The position numbers and the translations under genes were made by a program. DNA of 64,000 nt from Gemmobacter sp. 24YEA27 (lineage in GTDB: Bacteria; Pseudomonadota; Alphaproteobacteria; Rhodobacterales; Rhodobacteraceae): assembly GCF_030052995.1 (NCBI RefSeq), contig NZ_JASJPW010000001.1, forward strand, positions 3,447,918 through 3,511,917. The letters are read 5' to 3'. Of the stretch, positions 4,649-37,190 are shown piece by piece (position 1 is the first letter of the stretch; each line of letters starts with the position of its first letter). The notes below the pieces were generated by a model that was not told the origin of the DNA, ran no database searches, and saw nothing but the letters and a program-made list of their open reading frames with translations.

Positions 4649-5680
4649 TCAGCCGCCGCAGCAGGCACAGCCCTTGCGCTTTTTCACCCGGATCATCCGG
4701 GTTTCGGCATAAAGCGCATCATGGATCATCAGCCGCCCCTTCAGCCCCTCACCCGCGCCGGTGATATGTTTCACCGCCTCCAGCGCCATCATCGCGCCGA
4801 TCACGCCCGGCAGCGGCGCCACCACCCCGGCCTCGGCGCAGGAGGCCACCATCCCGGGCGCCGGCCGTTCGGGAAAGACGCATTCAAAACACGGGCCGCC
4901 CTGGGCCGGATCCCAGAGCGAGAGCTGCCCCTCCCATTGCGTCATCGCGCCGGTGATCAGCGGTTTCCCGAGCCGCGCGCAGGTCTGGTTCACAAGGTAG
5001 CGCGTGTCGAAATTGTCGGTGCCGTCCAGCACCAGGTCATAATCGGCGATCAACGCCCCGGCCACGGCGGCATCAAGCCGGCGGTGATAGGGCCGCACCT
5101 CGATAAACGGATTCAGCGCCTTCATAGCAGTCTCGGCGGAAAACACCTTGGGCATCCCGATCCGTGCGTCAGCATGGATGATCTGGCGTTGCAGATTGCT
5201 GAGCTCGACCAGGTCATCGTCGATCACTGCGATCTCGCCCACCCCGGCCCCGGCGAGGTACAAAAGCACCGGCGCACCAAGCCCGCCTGCCCCCACCACC
5301 AGAACTTTCGCGGATTTCAGGCGCTGCTGCCCCTGACCGCCGATCTCCCGCAGAAAGATATGGCGCGCATAGCGGCTGACCTCGGCGGGCGTGAACGGCC
5401 CTTCTTCCCGAGGCGGCTCCTGCGGGGCGGTCTTGCCCGCCTCATCGCGCAAATACCGCAGGAGGTGGCGGTAGCACTGCACCAGCACCACCACCGATCC
5501 CAGCACGAGGAAATAGCGGCTGTCCCAGCCAAGCTGGAGATTGACGCGCTCGACCCCATACCAGCCGATCCCGGCCTGGAGCGCGGCCCAGAACAGCGCA
5601 ATCCCAATGGTCGCGCCCCGCCCGAGCCCGGTGCCGAGCAGAATGGCCAGAAGGAAGAACACCGTCGGATTGTCGAACAT
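4649..5680 (-). CDS. moeB: HesA/MoeB/ThiF-family adenylyltransferase with membrane-anchored N-terminus
   Basis: An E1-like enzyme that adenylates the C-terminal glycine of a small sulfur-carrier protein (MoaD or ThiS) in molybdopterin or thiamine synthesis. From about residue 125 it shows the nucleotide-binding GAGGLGAPVLLYLAGAG, the acidic DDDLVELSNLQRQIIH with the catalytic arginine, and two zinc CxxC pairs (CFEC near residue 270 and CACC at the very end). Residues 1-70 contain two or three hydrophobic helices not found in E. coli MoeB, so the enzyme is probably membrane attached. No rhodanese domain is present. The symbol is by family resemblance, and ThiF or HesA would also fit. Confidence 0.85.
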   Translation of the reverse strand: MFDNPTVFFLLAILLGTGLGRGATIGIALFWAALQAGIGWYGVERVNLQLGWDSRYFLVLGSVVVLVQCYRHLLRYLRDEAGKTAPQEPPREEGPFTPAEVSRYARHIFLREIGGQGQQRLKSAKVLVVGAGGLGAPVLLYLAGAGVGEIAVIDDDLVELSNLQRQIIHADARIGMPKVFSAETAMKALNPFIEVRPYHRRLDAAVAGALIADYDLVLDGTDNFDTRYLVNQTCARLGKPLITGAMTQWEGQLSLWDPAQGGPCFECVFPERPAPGMVASCAEAGVVAPLPGVIGAMMALEAVKHITGAGEGLKGRLMIHDALYAETRMIRVKKRKGCACCGG

Positions 5681-30103: not shown

Positions 30104-31030
30104 ATGACACAGATCTTCTTTTCCGCTCCCGGCTGGGATGAATATGAACCCTTCCTGCCCGCCGCGCTAAGGGCGGCCGGTATCAGCGCCGATATCGTTA
30201 CCGAAGCGCATGACCCTGCGGCGATCGACTATATCCTCTATGCGCCCACCTCGCCTTTGCAGGATTTCGCCCCCTTCACCCGCGCCAAAGCGGTCATGTC
30301 GCTCTGGGCCGGGGTCGAGCGTATCGTGGGCAATCAAAGCCTTACCCAGCCGCTGACCCGGATGGTCGATCCGGGCCTGACCGAAAGCATGGTGGAATAT
30401 GTCACGGGACACGTCTTGCGCCATCATCTCGGCATGGACCGCCATATCGTCAATCCAGGCCGGGTCTGGGACCACGCCTGCCCGCCCATCGCCCGCCAGC
30501 GCCCGGTCACCTTCCTTGGTCTGGGCGAGCTGGGCCTCACCTGTGCCCGCGCGCTCCAGGCCCTGAATTTCCCGGTCAAAGGCTGGAGCCGCAGCCCGAA
30601 ATCCATCGCGGACCTCGCAACCTTTCATGGTGAGGCCGGCTTGCGGGAAGCGTTGCGCGATGCGCAGATCGTCATCACCCTGCTGCCCAACACGCCGGAC
30701 ACGCAGAACATCCTCAATGCGGACACGCTCGCGATGACGGCGCCCGGCGCCGTGGTCATCAACCCGGGGCGTGGCCCGCTGATTGACGATGCCGCGCTGA
30801 TCGCGGCGCTGGATGCCGGCCAGATCTCGCATGCCACGCTGGATGTCTTCCGGGTCGAACCCCTGCCGCAGGACCACCCGTTCTGGGCGCATCCTAAGGT
30901 CACCATCACGCCGCATGTTGCCGCCGATACCCGCGCGGTGACCGCCTCACAGGTGATTGCCGAAAACATCCGCCGCGCAGAAACGGGCGAGCCCCTCCTC
31001 CATCTGGTGGACCGTATCCGGGGCTACTGA
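30104..31030 (+). CDS. GhrA-like D-2-hydroxyacid dehydrogenase
   Basis: An NAD(P)-dependent glyoxylate/hydroxypyruvate reductase of 308 aa. The Rossmann motif is in FLGLGELGLTCARALQAL, followed by GWSRSP, which fits NADPH preference. The catalytic arginine is in NPGRGPLIDD, the glutamate in VEPLPQDHPFW, and the histidine in VTITPHVAA. It probably clears glyoxylate or hydroxypyruvate to glycolate or glycerate. It is monocistronic. Confidence 0.92.
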   Translation: MTQIFFSAPGWDEYEPFLPAALRAAGISADIVTEAHDPAAIDYILYAPTSPLQDFAPFTRAKAVMSLWAGVERIVGNQSLTQPLTRMVDPGLTESMVEYVTGHVLRHHLGMDRHIVNPGRVWDHACPPIARQRPVTFLGLGELGLTCARALQALNFPVKGWSRSPKSIADLATFHGEAGLREALRDAQIVITLLPNTPDTQNILNADTLAMTAPGAVVINPGRGPLIDDAALIAALDAGQISHATLDVFRVEPLPQDHPFWAHPKVTITPHVAADTRAVTASQVIAENIRRAETGEPLLHLVDRIRGY

Positions 31031-31042
31031 GGCCCTGCGACA

Positions 31043-31071
31043 GTTTCTCCCTTGAACAAAGAGGGAGAAAT
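31043..31071. other. intergenic hairpin
   Basis: TTTCTCCCT and AGGGAGAAA form a perfect 9-bp stem with a 9-nt loop between two plus-strand genes. No U tract follows on either strand, so it may be a processing or attenuation stem rather than a classical terminator. Confidence 0.5.
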
Positions 31072-31086
31072 CTGCCACCTGAGCCG

Positions 31087-31500
31087 ATGGACTGGATAAA
31101 AATCATTCATATTCTGGCCGTGATGGGCTGGATGACCTCGATCTTCGCGGTGCCGCGCGCGCTGATCTACTGGAAGCGCGAATGGGCCAGCCTTGGCGCT
31201 TTCGGACCGCTCGGCGATCTGACCCTGCGGCTCTATCGCTTTTCGGCCGGGCTGATGGTGATCGCCATTGCGACCGGGCTCTGGCTGGCTATCGGCTGGT
31301 GGGGGTTTGATCCCTGGCTGCATCTGAAGCTGAGCCTCGTCGCGTTTCTTGTGATCCATTACATCTGGACCGGCCGCATGGTCTGGCGCGCGCGGCGCGG
31401 CGAGTTCCGCGAAAGTGACCTGTTTCTGCGGATCTTCAACGAAATCAGCGTCTTTGCCGTAATCGCCATCCTCTGGGCCGTGGTGGTAAAGCCCTTCTGA
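31087..31500 (+). CDS. HemJ-like / CopD family membrane protein
   Basis: A 137-aa protein with four hydrophobic helices. The conserved histidine in WIKIIHILAVMGWM, the FAVPRALIYWKRE loop, the lysine in WLHLKLSLV, and the end RIFNEISVFAVIAILW-VVVKPF all match the HemJ/UPF0093 family, which oxidises protoporphyrinogen IX to protoporphyrin IX in bacteria lacking HemG/HemY. It is slightly shorter than typical HemJ. It may be HemJ itself or a close CopD-type paralogue. Confidence 0.75.
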   Translation: MDWIKIIHILAVMGWMTSIFAVPRALIYWKREWASLGAFGPLGDLTLRLYRFSAGLMVIAIATGLWLAIGWWGFDPWLHLKLSLVAFLVIHYIWTGRMVWRARRGEFRESDLFLRIFNEISVFAVIAILWAVVVKPF

Positions 31501-31886
31501 CGCAGGACCGACGTCACGCCGGCCCGCGGGGAGCCTGACCTCTGCGGCGCGAGATCCCGCAAGCTGTCTCAGACCCTGGCCCGGCACCTGGCACCTGGCA
31601 CCGAATGGTGCCATTGCGCCAGGGTAAATGGCCAGGAACAGGACGGCCACCAGGTTCGCAACAGGCGGAAGAGGCCGTACGAAATCCGACCGCCCCCGCG
31701 ACTGAGAGCGGAGAGACAATCCGATACCCCCCTGAGGCCCGGCAATCCCGGCCATGGGAAAGACCCGACCCGCAAGGCAGGGGACCGTCGCGGCATTCTG
31801 GCTCAACTGTCGGGCGTGGCGGGCAAGAGCATGAATGGACAATATCGCGCCACCGGCGGCCTCTGGCTGCACAGATACTGATTTGC
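31501..31886. other. non-coding stretch before decayed regulator
   Basis: There is no supportable gene in this 386-bp stretch. It includes overlapping direct repeats CACCTGGCACCTGGCACC and a small inverted repeat (GGTGCCATTGCGCC) near 31590-31625. These could be old regulatory sites of the decayed AraC gene downstream. Confidence 0.35.
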
Positions 31887-32600
31887 ATGACAGTGGCCCC
31901 TCCTGCGGCGCGACTGGCGCGGGTTCCTTTACCAGTGGCCCGACCGCCACATCACGAAAGGCTACGCCGCTGCGAACCGCCACCCTTGCGCCGGATCAAG
32001 CCTGCCCATTTCCTGCCCGGCAAGGGCAAGACCACGAGGATCACGCTTCCGGGCGAGGCCTGTCTGAGCTTTGTGACCACCATGGAATCCGATATTGTCA
32101 GCCCGCGTCTGCGCGCCCTGATGACAGCAGAGCTGCCCGGCCAGGGCATGGTGCCGGGCTTTTTCCTCTCCTGCCCGGCGCGGCATCTGCCCGAGAGGTC
32201 TTTCGACGGCCTGACCAGTGCGGCGGCACTTTTTCGCAAAGAAAGCGAATGCCTGGCCCTGATCGGTCAGGTCTTCGACGAACGCGCAGTTCGGCCGGGA
32301 CATGCCCGAAGCCCTGCTGCAAGACCGCCACGCGGGGACACTTTGCCTGGATCATTTTCGCCCAATGCCTCGGCAACAGCCATGTGACGCTCAAGCGCAG
32401 CTGCCGGCGCGAAGCCGGCATGACACTGTTTGAATGCCTGCGCGATCTGCGGCTGGAACGCGCCGCCGATCTGATCCGGAGCAACCGCCGCTCGCTGCCC
32501 GAAGCCGCCTATGATTGAGGCGTTTCCGGCCCCGGCCATCTCAGCACCGCTTTTCACAAACACTTTGGCATGACCGCGCGCGACGTCGGCGGGCGGGGTG
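31887..32600 (+). pseudogene. decayed AraC-family transcriptional regulator
   Basis: The N-terminal part is readable in one frame (GEACLSFVTTMESDIVSPRL and FFLSCPARHLPERSFDGL, similar to PchR-like sensory domains). The HTH part lies in another frame (REAGMTLFECLRDLRLERAA, DLIRSNRRSLPEAAYD). An in-frame TGA at 32516-32518 then separates it from GVSGPGHLSTAFHKHFGMTA, the second AraC helix. At least one frame change and one stop are needed, so the gene is dead. It could once have controlled metal-chelate uptake. Confidence 0.75.
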
Positions 32601-32739
32601 CAACCGGACCTGACGCTTTCGCGAGATGGAAGATCTGTTTGCCCCGACAGAGATCCGGCCTGCGGTTTCGTGCCAGTCGCAGCGGCAACCGATCTGCTGC
32701 GCGGACCGCCACGCCATTCCGCCGTTCCGCCCGACCATT

Positions 32740-32995
32740 GGAGCGAGTCTGCGCTGCACGCGTCAACGGCGGGGGCGGTGATCCCCGGTCTGACGGCGGT
32801 GCAAAACATCGCGCTGATGCTGCCCGGGCGGGCGAGGCCTGACATCCCCGAGACCCTCGCGCAACTGACCCTCGGCGCTGAGGCCGCTTCCTCCGCCTCG
32901 GGGCCGGGTGAGGAAGCCAGAGGCCTCGTCACGGCCCTGATCGCCGGGCAGAGGGCCAGGGCCCGCTTTACCCTGGTCGTGATCAGCCATGACCG
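32740..32995 (+). pseudogene. possible remnant of an ABC-transporter ATPase
   Basis: One frame reads VIPGLTAVQNIALMLPGRA, then LVTALIAGQRARARFTLV and VISHDR, reminiscent of the Q-loop to H-loop order of importer ATPases, but the signature and Walker B motifs are unrecognisable. It lies between the dead AraC gene and the B12 riboswitch. This is a weak call. Confidence 0.3.
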
Positions 32996-33144
32996 GAAGC
33001 GGCATTTTAGCCCAGTTTCGCGCTCAGACGGGCGCCGGAGGGCGGGCCGCGGCCTGAAACGCATCACATTCCGGGCCTCAGATCAATTTCGACATAATTT
33101 GCCGCAGACAGAACAGTTTTTCACATAGCGCCTGCTCTGATCGC

Positions 33145-33340
33145 GTCAGATCAGGGTGCCACCATATCGGGAGGTCTGGAGGAGAATTGGGAAGCCGGAC
33201 CGATGCCGGCGCTGCCCCCGCAACGGGTGCGGCGCTTCGCGGCATGGCGGGACCCACTGGCTGAAGGAGCGGCCGGGAAGGTGCCATTTCTGTTCGCGAA
33301 AGGGCACAGGCCAGACATCCGGAAACCAGCCCTGAGGCGG
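33145..33340 (+). promoter_or_regulatory. cobalamin (adenosylcobalamin) riboswitch
   Basis: The conserved core appears in order. GGGTGCC comes at 33154, then TTGGGAAGCCGG...CCGGCGCTG, the invariant CCCCCGCAAC (33215-33224), and CCACTG. GGGAAGGTGCC follows near 33275, and the B12-box-like ATCCGGAAACCAGCC is at 33317-33331. Such elements turn genes off when cobalamin is plentiful. About 110 nt separate it from the Rieske gene. That gap contains the stem GGTCCG-CCC-CGGACC (near 33384) and a GGAGG ribosome-binding site, possible expression platforms. Confidence 0.85.
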
Positions 33341-33452
33341 AAATCAGCGTGGCTGCGGCGGGCAGTCAGGAGCGCTTTGGCAGGTCCGCCCCGGACCATA
33401 GCCCGGCGTCTCCGATCACCCGGGGCAGCAAACAAACCAGCAGGAGGCCAGA

Positions 33453-34691
33453 TTGGGCGCGCTTCACGACGATAGTTTTTCCACCCCGGACCAAAAGCCC
33501 GACGCCATTGCGCGGCTGATCGCGGAACACCGCCCGGGCCATGGCCTCGTGCGGGATTTCTACATGGATCCGGACGTCTTTGCCCGTGATATGGAGCGGG
33601 TGTTCCGCCGCCACTGGCACTGTCTGGCCCATGAAAGCGTGATCCCGAAGCCCGGCGATTTCGAGCTGTTCCGCCTTGGCGATGAACAGGTCATCCTGAC
33701 ACGCGACATGCAGGGCGAGGTGCATGGGCTCCTGAATTCCTGCCGCCATCGCGGTGCCGAGGTCTGCACAAAAGACAAGGGCAATGCGAAGATGTTCGTC
33801 TGCCCTTATCACGCCTGGACCTATACGCTGGACGGCGCTTTGCGCGCGGCCCGGCTGATGCCGAAGGATTTCGACCGCGCCGCCCATGCGCTGAAAAAAG
33901 TGCATGTGAAGGTGGTCGAAGGGCTGGTCTTCATCTCCTTCGCGAAAGACCCGCTGGATTTCACGCAAGTGGAGCAATCCCTGCACGCCAGTATCGGCCA
34001 ATATGGCTGGGGCGCGGCAAAGGTCGCGCATCGCGAGACCTATCCGATCTCCGCGAACTGGAAGCTGGCGGTCGAGAATTATGTCGAATGCTATCACTGT
34101 GGCCCGGCGCATCCGGAATATTCGCAGACCCATGCGCTGGAGCAACCGCCCGAAGTGATCGCCGGTCTCAATGCCGCCATGGAGGAAAAGAGCTGCGCGC
34201 TCGGGCTTTCGGTGCTGTCGGGCAATCACTGGCAGAATTCATCCCGGGGTGGCGAGGCGGTCGATGTTTTCCGCTATGCGCTTTACGAGGGCGCCTCGAC
34301 CGGGTCCGAAGATGGCTCCCCCCTCGCACCTTTGATGGGGCGCTTCACCGATTATGATGGCGGCGTGACCTCAATCCATCTCGGTGGCACCACATTTCTG
34401 GTCTGCTATCCCGATCACGGCATGATCTACCGTTTCATCCCGAAAACCCATGATACCTGCGAGATGGAACTGATCTGGCTGGTGAAAGACGGCGCAGAGG
34501 AAGGCGTCGATTACGATCTGAACCTCCTGACCTGGCTCTGGAAAGTCACGACCGAGGAAGACAAGAAGATCATCGAACACACCGCGCGCGGCGTGAAATC
34601 GCATTACTTCGAGCCTGGTCCCATCGCACCGATGGAATATAACGAGTTGCGCTATATCACCTGGTATCTCGACGAGATCAGCCGGGCCTGA
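33453..34691 (+). CDS. Rieske non-haem iron oxygenase, alpha subunit (GbcA/Stc2-like)
   Basis: A 412-aa ring-hydroxylating/N-demethylating oxygenase. The Rieske cluster ligands are in CRHRGAEVC (about residue 97) and CPYHAWTYTLDG (about 117). The mononuclear iron site is in ENYVECYHCGPAHPEY (His-x4-His, about 210), with an Asp ligand expected downstream. Overall layout resembles glycine-betaine or proline-betaine demethylases (GbcA, Stc2) as well as aromatic dioxygenases. No reductase gene is adjacent. It follows a cobalamin riboswitch, an unusual arrangement. The start codon may be TTG (AGGAGGCCAGA precedes it). The substrate is inferred, not shown. Confidence 0.88.
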   Translation: MGALHDDSFSTPDQKPDAIARLIAEHRPGHGLVRDFYMDPDVFARDMERVFRRHWHCLAHESVIPKPGDFELFRLGDEQVILTRDMQGEVHGLLNSCRHRGAEVCTKDKGNAKMFVCPYHAWTYTLDGALRAARLMPKDFDRAAHALKKVHVKVVEGLVFISFAKDPLDFTQVEQSLHASIGQYGWGAAKVAHRETYPISANWKLAVENYVECYHCGPAHPEYSQTHALEQPPEVIAGLNAAMEEKSCALGLSVLSGNHWQNSSRGGEAVDVFRYALYEGASTGSEDGSPLAPLMGRFTDYDGGVTSIHLGGTTFLVCYPDHGMIYRFIPKTHDTCEMELIWLVKDGAEEGVDYDLNLLTWLWKVTTEEDKKIIEHTARGVKSHYFEPGPIAPMEYNELRYITWYLDEISRA

Positions 34692-35063
34692 CCAGCGCCA
34701 CGACCGGAAGAAACGAGGTTCCGGCCCCCGCCGGGCCTCGTATGCCCTGCCAGGAAATTCCACCTGGGGCGGCCGTCCACCACGCCTTGCAGGACGGGCG
34801 GAAAGCAGAGCGGTCTCCCCGGCCGCTCCCCCGCAAGCGCGCTTTGCCCGCCGGCCGCCCTGCGAGCGTCCGGGCCAAGCCGGCCCCTGGCCGGAAACCC
34901 CGTCCGGGGTAAACTCCCGGGATATCAAATGCGCCAGGGGGCAGAGCCGGCAAAAATGCGTCCTCTGTTCCGCGCCCGGAAAAGCGGCAATACGGCGCAA
35001 CAGCTTTCCCCTGACAAACAGACTCTCGCCGAAGGCAAAGCGCCCCGCAGGGGCGCCCCCTCC
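34692..35063. other. intergenic region between convergent genes
   Basis: This 372-bp stretch has no supportable gene. It contains the hairpin CGAGGTTCCGGC-CCCC-GCCGGGCCTCG-like stem at 34715-34741 (likely end of the Rieske transcript) and the stem GCGCCCC-GCA-GGGGCGC at about 35040-35056 (likely end of the minus-strand operon). A CCCGGGATAT segment near 34918 recalls the dispersed palindrome family. Confidence 0.5.
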
Positions 35064-37190
35064 TCAGCGCTTCGCGCCCCGGCGGCCCTCGATCAGCCAG
35101 GCGGCGATGACCAGCCCGGCGGTCAGCACAAGCCAGGCCCAGCCCGGCAGCAAAGCCGCCAGTCGCACCTCGGTGGTCATCCAGGCCTCGCGGGGTGTGA
35201 TACCGATCCAGCCGCGCCCCGTCACCGGTCGCCCCTCTGCCACCTGCCGCAGGTCAGGCAGGCCGGGCTCCAGCCGGGTCACCGACCCATAGGCCGGGCC
35301 GCCGGCGGATTTCGGCGCGATCACCGCATCGCCCGAGGCGATGGTTTCGACGAATTCGCGCGGGCTGGCCGGGCCGACGCCGATCACCCGCGTCAGATCG
35401 CCCTGTTCCAGCCGGTAAAGCCCGGCCTCGGGCGCCTGCCAGACCACCTGATACTTGCCCGGTGCCACCTGGATCATATCAAGGATCACCGGCTTCCCGG
35501 GCTCTCCCTCCACCGCACTGTCCTGTGCCGTGACAATCAGTGGCCCTGGCGGATCCTCGGACACCGTGCGCCGCGTGATGGTCAGTTCATTGCCTTTGGC
35601 GGTCGCCGTCAGCGCCTCTTCTTCAAGATCCGGCTCTTTCAGCATCCAATGTGCCAGCCGCCGCAAAAGCTCCAGCTGCGGCCCGCCGCCCTCATAACCG
35701 CGGCCCCAGAGCCAGGCATGATCCGAGGTCAGGACCGCGATCCGCCCCTCATCCACCCGGTCAAGCACCAGCAAAGGCGCACCATCCGGCCCCTCCATCA
35801 CGGTCTGACCGGAAAGTTTCTCGACCTCCATAACCCGGAACCAGCGGCCCCAGCCCGGCTCGCCGTTTTCGCCCTGAGGCGCAAAACGGTCGAGGCCCTC
35901 GGTGACCGGATGGCGCTGGCCGAGTTCCGTGATCTTCGGGCGGAACCCGCCTTCGATGACCTGAGCGGTCGGCGCCACCGGCAGCACCTCGGCCAGAGGC
36001 GAGCGGTACAGGCTGTCGACCGCGCCGAATTCCGGCCCCGAGGCCACCAGAACCGTGCCGCCCTCGCGGATATAGCGGACGACATTGTCGATGTAAGACA
36101 TCGGAAGAATGCCGCGCATCCGATAGCGGTCAAAGATGATCAGGTCGAATTCGTCAATCTTTTCGATAAACAGCTCGCGCGTCGGAAAAGCGATCAGCGA
36201 CAGCTCATCCACCGGCACGCCATCCTGTTTCTCCGGCGGGCGCAGAATGGTGAAATGCACGAGATCGACGCTGGCATCTGATTTCAACAGGTTGCGCCAG
36301 ACGCGTTCCCCGGCATGAGGCTCGCCCGAAACAAGCAACACGCGCAGCCGGTCGCGCACGCCATTGATCTGCACCACGGCGGTATTGTTGCGCTCGGTCA
36401 GCTCGCCCGAGGTCGGGCCGATGGCGAATTGCAGCACATTCAGCCCGCCATGCGGCAGCACGACCGGCAGTTCCAGATCCTCGCCCACCGGCACCGAATA
36501 GGTCTGCGGCGCATCGGCATCGACCGCGATGGTCAGATCGGCGAATTGCGGCACATCCGGCGGCACCAGACCCTGATCCTCGACCCTTAGCTTCAGCTTG
36601 AATTCCTCGCCGATGATCGCGAAGGCCGGCGCATTCTGCACCACAAGGCGGCGGTCCCAGTCGGCCGCTTCACCTGTCAGCAGCAGATGGAACGGCGCGG
36701 GCAGATCGGGGCGCATCTCAAGGTCATGCACCCGCCCGTCCGAGATCAGGATCACCGCCGCCACCCGGGCACGGGGTTCCTCGGCCAGGGCCTCCGACAT
36801 GGCGGTCATCGCCAGCGTGCCGGTATTGTCGGCGCCATCGGTGATGTGTTTCACCCGCAGCTCGGTATTGTCCAGCGCCGCGACCTGGGCCTCCACCCGC
36901 GTCAGCGCGCGCCGCGTCTGATCGGCCCGCGCCCCAAGACCCTGGCTCGCGCTGTCATCCACCAGGACGATTACAATGTCCGAAAGGTTCTGCCGGTCCT
37001 CGCTTTGCAGCCCCGGCCCGGCCAGCGCCGCCAGAAGCGCAGCCAGCCCAAGCCCGCGCAAGAACCAGCCCGGCAGCCCGCGCCAGAGCGCCAGCGCCAG
37101 CATCAGAAGCGTCACGCCGCCAAGCGCCCATAAAAGCGGCCAGGGCACCAGCGGATCGAAGACAAGATGCGCCGTCATCGCGCCGTTCAT
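35064..37190 (-). CDS. large membrane protein with VWA-like and amidotransferase-like domains (MoxR operon)
   Basis: A 708-aa protein with two N-terminal helices (about residues 12-60), a VWA-like segment beginning IVIVLVDDSAS, a CARDB-like beta region, and a class I glutamine amidotransferase-like fold around VLLVSGEPHAGERVWRN and GGTVLVASGPEFG. It ends in a C-terminal helix and a basic tail. No canonical Cys-His-Glu triad is obvious, so it is probably non-enzymatic. It starts with ATGA overlap to the upstream BatA/DUF4159 gene. Such proteins co-occur with MoxR AAA+ chaperones; the role of the complex is not established. Confidence 0.82.
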   Translation of the reverse strand: MNGAMTAHLVFDPLVPWPLLWALGGVTLLMLALALWRGLPGWFLRGLGLAALLAALAGPGLQSEDRQNLSDIVIVLVDDSASQGLGARADQTRRALTRVEAQVAALDNTELRVKHITDGADNTGTLAMTAMSEALAEEPRARVAAVILISDGRVHDLEMRPDLPAPFHLLLTGEAADWDRRLVVQNAPAFAIIGEEFKLKLRVEDQGLVPPDVPQFADLTIAVDADAPQTYSVPVGEDLELPVVLPHGGLNVLQFAIGPTSGELTERNNTAVVQINGVRDRLRVLLVSGEPHAGERVWRNLLKSDASVDLVHFTILRPPEKQDGVPVDELSLIAFPTRELFIEKIDEFDLIIFDRYRMRGILPMSYIDNVVRYIREGGTVLVASGPEFGAVDSLYRSPLAEVLPVAPTAQVIEGGFRPKITELGQRHPVTEGLDRFAPQGENGEPGWGRWFRVMEVEKLSGQTVMEGPDGAPLLVLDRVDEGRIAVLTSDHAWLWGRGYEGGGPQLELLRRLAHWMLKEPDLEEEALTATAKGNELTITRRTVSEDPPGPLIVTAQDSAVEGEPGKPVILDMIQVAPGKYQVVWQAPEAGLYRLEQGDLTRVIGVGPASPREFVETIASGDAVIAPKSAGGPAYGSVTRLEPGLPDLRQVAEGRPVTGRGWIGITPREAWMTTEVRLAALLPGWAWLVLTAGLVIAAWLIEGRRGAKR

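Follow-up and report, generated by a model that had tools for sequence, protein, structure and literature searches.

A cobalamin riboswitch lies directly upstream of a Rieske non-haem iron oxygenase gene in Gemmobacter sp. 24YEA27, and sequence comparison gives strong support to the view that the two are an inherited regulatory unit with one origin rather than the outcome of repeated accidents. We consider it probable that this inherited unit encodes an O2-dependent quaternary-amine demethylase that is repressed by B12 and serves as a back-up for corrinoid-dependent demethylation of the MtgBCD type. The window, the whole 64,000-nucleotide stretch of DNA analysed here, was scanned with cmscan at Rfam gathering thresholds and contains one cobalamin riboswitch match (RF00174, E = 3.6e-14 for the whole 64-kb window); the only other Rfam matches are two tRNAs. 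We refer to the Rieske gene at 33453-34691 and its orthologs as type A. The features in and around the unit are:

31594..31807 (+), decayed second cobalamin riboswitch, outside the Rieske unit; 17.9 Rfam bits, below the cut-off, and 10.4 bits with our own covariance model, R1
31835..33080 (+), remnants of an AraC-type regulator and an ABC transporter ATPase, outside the Rieske unit
33137..33348 (+), cobalamin riboswitch aptamer (RF00174), 66.3 bits against a gathering cut-off of 31.5
33350..33368 (+), hairpin directly 3' of the aptamer, stem 33350-33356 / 33362-33368, loop GGCGG
33369..33448 (+), possible translational switch segment, suggested by segment positions, folds, and alignment
33442..33447 (+), Shine-Dalgarno sequence AGGAGG, with 5 nt between it and the TTG codon
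33453..34691 (+), type A Rieske non-haem iron oxygenase, 412 aa, TTG start, PF00355 and PF00848

Cobalamin binding to riboswitches of the RF00174 class represses the genes downstream. The window aptamer retains 38 of 47 mapped model pairs in standard form, compared with 36, 37, and 36 in the orthologous aptamers of genomes G001, G008, and G009, and its score is the lowest among the nine cobalamin riboswitches of its own genome. The original prediction of a riboswitch ahead of a Rieske oxygenase is confirmed by the above-threshold match and by the intact reading frame, and the motifs it had named, the B12-box included, are present in the sequence. The start codon lies about 100 bases past the aptamer. 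Since the following gene (35064-37190) is on the opposite strand, the type A gene is probably monocistronic in the window.

Comparison of 13 genomes of the genus, including that of 24YEA27, finds a type A gene in this genome and three others, with orthologs 87-98% identical to that in the window. All four carry a riboswitch directly upstream (66.3 bits in the window, 48.4 in G001, 69.8 in G008, and 67.1 in G009). In G004 and G006, which have no type A gene, the flanking genes are about 1.3 kb apart versus 4 kb in the window, and the interval looks like an empty site. The riboswitch and type A gene of G009 occupy a different genomic site, away from the window's flanking genes, and blastn similarity to the window begins only at the riboswitch region; because both elements sit together at another place, they behave as a unit. 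The pairing is therefore conserved in relatives, being found in the four genus genomes with the gene and in six rhizobial loci described below. A class-wide search of 385 genomes at E <= 1e-180 returned type A from the 24YEA27 genome only.

We compared changes relative to the window sequence in each aptamer with those at fourfold sites. The aptamer has changed less in G008 (12/212 versus 29/202, p 0.005) and in G009 (58/201 versus 75/177, p 0.007), the latter including changes at conserved core positions. No constraint is seen in G001 (33/212 versus 26/203, p 0.48). As the core motif of the 48.4-bit G001 riboswitch is also altered, this copy appears degenerate and may be failing or dead.

Beyond the genus, a scan of named genomes yielded 139 loci, the best 80 of which were kept. 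R1 flagged riboswitches in 14 of these 80 at E <= 0.1, some of them belonging to other genes. Because R1 contains only 16 base pairs, its key matches were re-checked with Rfam in 14 sources. An Rfam riboswitch stands at the head of type A or of its operon in six rhizobial loci and, with the genus members L065 and L066, in 8 of the best 80; most orthologs have no detected switch. The rhizobial riboswitches and the gene orders that they head are:

L077, 106.7 bits: switch, small protein, BHMT, type A
L078, 65.4 bits: switch, small protein, type A
L079, 111.1 bits: switch, type B, reductase, small protein, type A
L087, 109.8 bits: switch, small protein, type A
L099, 53.5 bits (cut by the contig end): switch, type B, reductase, small protein, BHMT, type A
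L108, 100.7 bits: switch, type B, reductase, small protein, type A

The small protein (~90-110 aa, motif PLPPPEEVFADWLMSVP) lies between riboswitch and type A gene in all six of these loci. A tblastn search at E 1e-3 detected it nowhere else in the loci examined, those of Pseudogemmobacter included, and it has no match in Pfam or NCBIfam. Using an approximate query sequence, we found 84 relatives at E <= 0.001, the named ones being hypothetical proteins.

In some relatives, type A is found together with B12-independent enzymes. BHMT adjoins it in L076 (in part), L077, and L099, and the L077 protein scores 217 bits to the solved betaine-homocysteine methyltransferase 1lt7, which we take to be the human enzyme. 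On the opposite strand of L079, a second riboswitch (134 bits) is followed by mesX (PF08908, 576 bits), mesD, and a flavin reductase. metE occurs near type A in L076, L108, L111, and L133, preceded by a riboswitch in L076 (cut), L111, and L133, while a riboswitch-nrd arrangement stands beside type A in L095, L118, and L135. Switch-less type A genes adjoin carnitine/betaine breakdown genes in Phyllobacterium and DMG/sarcosine-dehydrogenase-like genes in Rhizobium; these neighbour calls rest on profile tests in L080 (BKACE, thioesterase, DAO + GCV_T) and on clustering in the others. Ten Mesorhizobium type A genes stand side by side with an MTTB-type gene on the same strand, an assignment tested by Pfam in L068 and made by clustering in the rest, and R1 matched no riboswitch within the DNA examined at these ten loci.

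Other features near type A include a CbtA cobalt transporter gene (L077 995-1735, minus strand), a CbiX-like frame preceded by a divergent riboswitch (L133 2460-3341, minus strand), a ferrichrome-type binding protein with FhuF (L092 3805-5669, minus strand), and, in L079, a periplasmic binding protein that matches BtuF weakly. In L078, a TPP riboswitch (5355-5456) lies downstream of type A, before a thiO-like gene.

Two trees bear on the origin of the pairing. In the protein tree (85 rows: 80 loci, the window, G008, and three outgroups), all ten riboswitch-headed type A genes fall in one 22-row clade with support of 98/97, the bootstrap being not fully settled. The remaining 12 rows are L083, L076, in which only ~300 bases upstream of type A were covered, and the ten Mesorhizobium genes that adjoin an MTTB-type one. 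The riboswitch label requires four changes on this tree, a number that none of 500 shuffles matched, though near-copies in the tree favour a low count in such a test. Early gain of the riboswitch with later losses is the simplest reading of this pattern. The aptamer tree comprises 27 riboswitches, with the cut L099 copy left out. Here, the type A riboswitches group together (88/100), adjoining those of the type B genes and apart from the mes, metE, nrd, btu, and cob ones; the bluB riboswitch falls in on a long branch, and 12 of the 24 inner branches are open.

The type A riboswitches also share an element outside the aptamer model. A 7-pair hairpin with a GGYGG loop directly follows the aptamer in all ten, and probably represents P13 of the expression platform. 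The seven non-Rieske riboswitches of the 24YEA27 genome do not have it, their best stem with such a loop being 3 pairs. Of six type B riboswitches examined, three carry a 5-pair version and the others form 1, 2, and 4 pairs. A search for the motif in 1.4 Mb of loci returned type A loci and one stray site only. Covariation was assessed in 13 sequences, nine of them distinct (the ten type A hairpins and the three type B ones), from which the structure itself had also been drawn: 95% of cells are paired and the covariation score is 0.385, each value being reached by 0 of 500 shuffles. Three of the seven pairs have changed on both sides, a count that 19 of 500 shuffles reach, and pair types are no more numerous than expected by chance (465/500).

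Downstream of this hairpin, either GGAGCGC (33369) or the Shine-Dalgarno region (33443) could possibly pair with GCGUCUCC (33406), an arrangement that would permit a translational switch; the leader segment concerned is missing in G009. Across GGAGGCCAGATTGGG, the window and all three orthologs aligned with it agree at every base. Folding of the leader gave no clean sequestered Shine-Dalgarno, and the pairing with GCGUCUCC did not form when the Shine-Dalgarno segment was folded alone. Since no run of at least four T was found in the leaders examined, we favour translational control over termination as the likelier mode. Transcriptional termination is further disfavoured by the orientation of the sole terminator-like site, which belongs to the minus strand. 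A search of 33000-35000 yielded no sigma-70-type promoter.

The original prediction had offered, as an alternative, that an ancestral uptake operon decayed and left its riboswitch beside an unrelated gene. A decayed cobalamin-riboswitch operon does lie immediately upstream (window 31594-33080; L062 6258-8339). Its riboswitch falls below the Rfam cut-off in the window and scores 59.4 bits in G001. HTH_18 matches the 31835-32518 frame at 30.8 bits, just short of the 33.6-bit cut-off, and 32598-33128 has no Pfam match. Within the latter, 32779-32886 is 89% identical to a G001 stretch whose frame gives a weak, sub-threshold ABC_tran match (22.1 bits), and an ABC permease remnant (46.4 bits) is present in G001 only. 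The regulator and transporter remnants, the decayed riboswitch, and the low score of the Rieske riboswitch could all suggest that the latter is a leftover of cobalamin or cobalt uptake that came to lie by chance beside an unrelated Rieske gene. However, a separate riboswitch belongs to the decayed operon, and the aptamer tree places it with the cbt type (100/99), whereas the Rieske one groups with the rhizobial Rieske riboswitches. The relocated unit of G009, with similarity beginning only at the riboswitch region, and the covarying hairpin common to type A riboswitches likewise argue against a chance remnant. Operon decay did occur, but it probably did not supply the Rieske switch, and we regard the leftover explanation as very improbable. 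A different possibility is that the unit was once functional and that its switch is now decaying, leaving type A constitutive. The low bit scores and the unconstrained core changes in G001 are consistent with such a loss, but the aptamers of G008 and G009 remain constrained and the window retains both its 38 of 47 pairs and the hairpin, which makes general decay rather unlikely.

The protein encoded by the type A gene combines Rieske (PF00355) and Ring_hydroxyl_A (PF00848) domains. Residues C97, H99, C117, H120, H215, H220, and D370 are invariant in 14 aligned type A-related proteins; from Rieske oxygenase motifs, we assume that they serve as ligands of the Rieske [2Fe-2S] cluster and of the mononuclear iron (His/His/Asp). 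The predicted structure (mean pLDDT 88) is closest to 3n0q, a putative quaternary-amine demethylase, and ranks 2-16 among solved folds are taken by Stc2, stachydrine demethylase, and CntA entries. On the basis of these folds and the invariant metal-binding motifs, type A is predicted to be of the quaternary-ammonium N-demethylase type. The enzyme had been described as GbcA/Stc2-like. Stc2 is among the nearest folds; to the GbcA model (NF058607), whose curated equivalog cut-off is 670, type A scores 274.4 bits. We therefore disfavour the GbcA label, and a glycine-betaine-specific name is unsupported.

The nine cobalamin riboswitches of the 24YEA27 genome precede mesX-mesD, a TonB receptor gene, a type B Rieske operon, a BtuF-like gene, btuB, cobW-type genes, bluB, cbtBA, and type A; these target names come from sequence reading, except for MesX, a methionine-synthase part, and the type B operon. 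MesX scores 574 bits, and the methionine-synthase part was matched beside it. By sequence reading, the riboswitch-controlled mesX-mesD operon (L001, G000:C6) is close to transposase-like frames. Type B is a second Rieske protein, ~35% identical to type A, and its gene follows a 103-bit riboswitch in an operon with genes for a GbcB-like reductase and a thioesterase-like protein. After a gap of ~650 bases come nrdH-/nrdI-like frames and nrdEF. By coordinates, a riboswitch directly precedes type B in 9 of the 13 genus genomes, among them all four with type A. Type B scores 497-512 bits to GbcA and its reductase 360-366 bits to GbcB. In the window, no reductase gene adjoins type A, and the enzyme may therefore rely on the one encoded with type B. 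Reportedly, Rodionov et al. (2003) noted B12-regulated ardX-frdX genes, ring-dioxygenase- and ferredoxin-like, which we presume could be the type B pair; type A is not known to be among them. In three genomes, a TPP riboswitch is divergent from the type B riboswitch (L003 1856-1962, L024 3184-3290, and L028 898-1004). Three cobalamin riboswitches of identical score and length also occur on one contig of G004 (G004:C5:44957, 140196, and 261290), perhaps as a repeated element.

Potential B12-dependent counterparts are encoded in the same genome. MTTB/MtgB-family methyltransferases are present, one of which scores 715 bits to 4yyc, presumably from S. meliloti, and 390 bits to a solved 'Glycine betaine methyltransferase'. 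Homocysteine methyltransferases (PF02574) are also encoded. A B12-binding protein (PF02310) occupies a separate 205-aa frame, and two proteins match the NrdJ model above its cut-off. One MTTB-family gene is split over two frames (G000:C1:882226-883718), and single frames in G001, G004, and G008 give MTTB-family matches of 675-676 bits. In G005, a GbcA-type Rieske gene (30162-31334) with no riboswitch match lies between two MTTB-family genes (G005:C109:26452-34057).

We propose that, when cobalamin is plentiful, the aptamer would bind it and the downstream hairpin and leader would keep ribosomes off type A, whereas cobalamin scarcity would allow the oxygenase to be made. The enzyme would then use O2 to N-demethylate a quaternary amine, for which glycine betaine or a closely related compound is the likeliest candidate, with electrons probably delivered by the type B reductase, whose operon has a switch of this kind as well. 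In this way, type A would back up MtgB-type corrinoid-dependent demethylation, which fails without B12, much as MesX-MesD or MetE can stand in for B12-dependent methionine synthase, and NrdEF for NrdJ. We read type A as a fallback under B12 scarcity because its pairing with the riboswitch recurs in relatives, at times beside B12-independent backup enzymes. A parallel with metE/metH had been suggested at the outset; recurrence in rhizobia and the presence of MTTB/MtgB-family enzymes lend it strong comparative backing. A role purely as an alternative to MtgB fits poorly, since the Mesorhizobium type A and MTTB-type genes adjoin without a detected switch.

Two other functions for the enzyme have to be weighed. 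The Rieske proteins could serve B12-independent methionine synthesis directly, by clearing BHMT-made dimethylglycine or making the MesX-MesD substrate, rather than betaine catabolism. This would account for BHMT next to type A in three loci and mesX-mesD in L079, and the substrate of MesX is given as unknown in the available portion of PMC7857596. Neither neighbour, however, is found in the DNA examined around L078, L087, or the window unit, and switch-less orthologs adjoin carnitine/betaine breakdown genes (BKACE, DMG/sarcosine-dehydrogenase-like); we consider the direct role unlikely. We give little credence to the idea that the enzyme, like BluB, takes part in making, salvaging, or remodelling cobalamin. 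By sequence reading, most cobalamin riboswitches of the genome do precede synthesis or uptake genes, bluB included, and CbtA, the CbiX-like frame, and the weak BtuF match lie near type A in L077, L133, and L079, but the nearest folds are quaternary-ammonium demethylases and the switch-less orthologs again sit among betaine/carnitine genes. The most economical account is that oxygen-dependent, B12-independent substitutes are placed under cobalamin riboswitches, type A being the demethylase among them. More tentatively, and with considerable doubt, one riboswitch lineage could drive a B12-shortage regulon of two paralogous Rieske demethylases, a reductase, the small protein, and at times BHMT. 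B12-starved cells would thereby exchange corrinoid methyl transfer for O2-dependent demethylation, coupled to a methionine synthesis that needs no B12. Such a regulon may, in addition, provide the compound on which MesX acts.

Neither the riboswitch class nor the isozyme logic nor the enzyme superfamily is new. The unit shares with metE and class I nrd both the RF00174 aptamer class and the logic of repressing a B12-independent enzyme, and in some type A loci the riboswitch stands beside metE or nrd themselves; it differs in that the controlled gene encodes a predicted Rieske N-demethylase. Type A shares its fold with Stc2/stachydrine demethylase (3vca, 4qup) and 3n0q at 32-35% identity over the whole length, and metal-site residues are conserved among its relatives, yet it is more distant from these proteins (227-246 bits) than type B is (546-565 bits). 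The type B Rieske protein and reductase resemble GbcA and GbcB, both below the curated cut-offs (670 and 500), whereas type A scores much lower to GbcA (262-274 bits). Ruegeria pomeroyi demethylates glycine betaine via the cobalamin-dependent MtgBCD system, with MtgC and MtgD shared between betaine demethylation and methionine synthesis, and mtgBCDE genes are present in S. meliloti too, according to the available portion of a 2025 study (PMC12478193). MtgBCD likely achieves the same outcome as type A, betaine demethylation, but by corrinoid methyl transfer rather than O2, and is the system that the type A unit would replace. MesD requires MesX and oxygen, not cobalamin, in the available text of PMC7857596.

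The literature searched, as far as its texts were available, contains no description of a cobalamin riboswitch before a Rieske oxygenase, and 'dioxygenase' and 'oxygenase' are absent from the accessible main text of the cobalamin regulon survey PMC3766115. Nor was any mention found in that literature of a Rieske demethylase as a conserved riboswitch target with links to MesXD, MetE, BHMT, and class Ib reductase. If our interpretation is correct, O2-dependent N-demethylation would join methionine synthesis and ribonucleotide reduction among the B12-replaceable functions under cobalamin riboswitches. The finding draws attention to a small, uncharacterised protein and to possible partners of MesX, and it would establish a direct, testable link between B12 supply and the breakdown of betaine, an abundant osmolyte.
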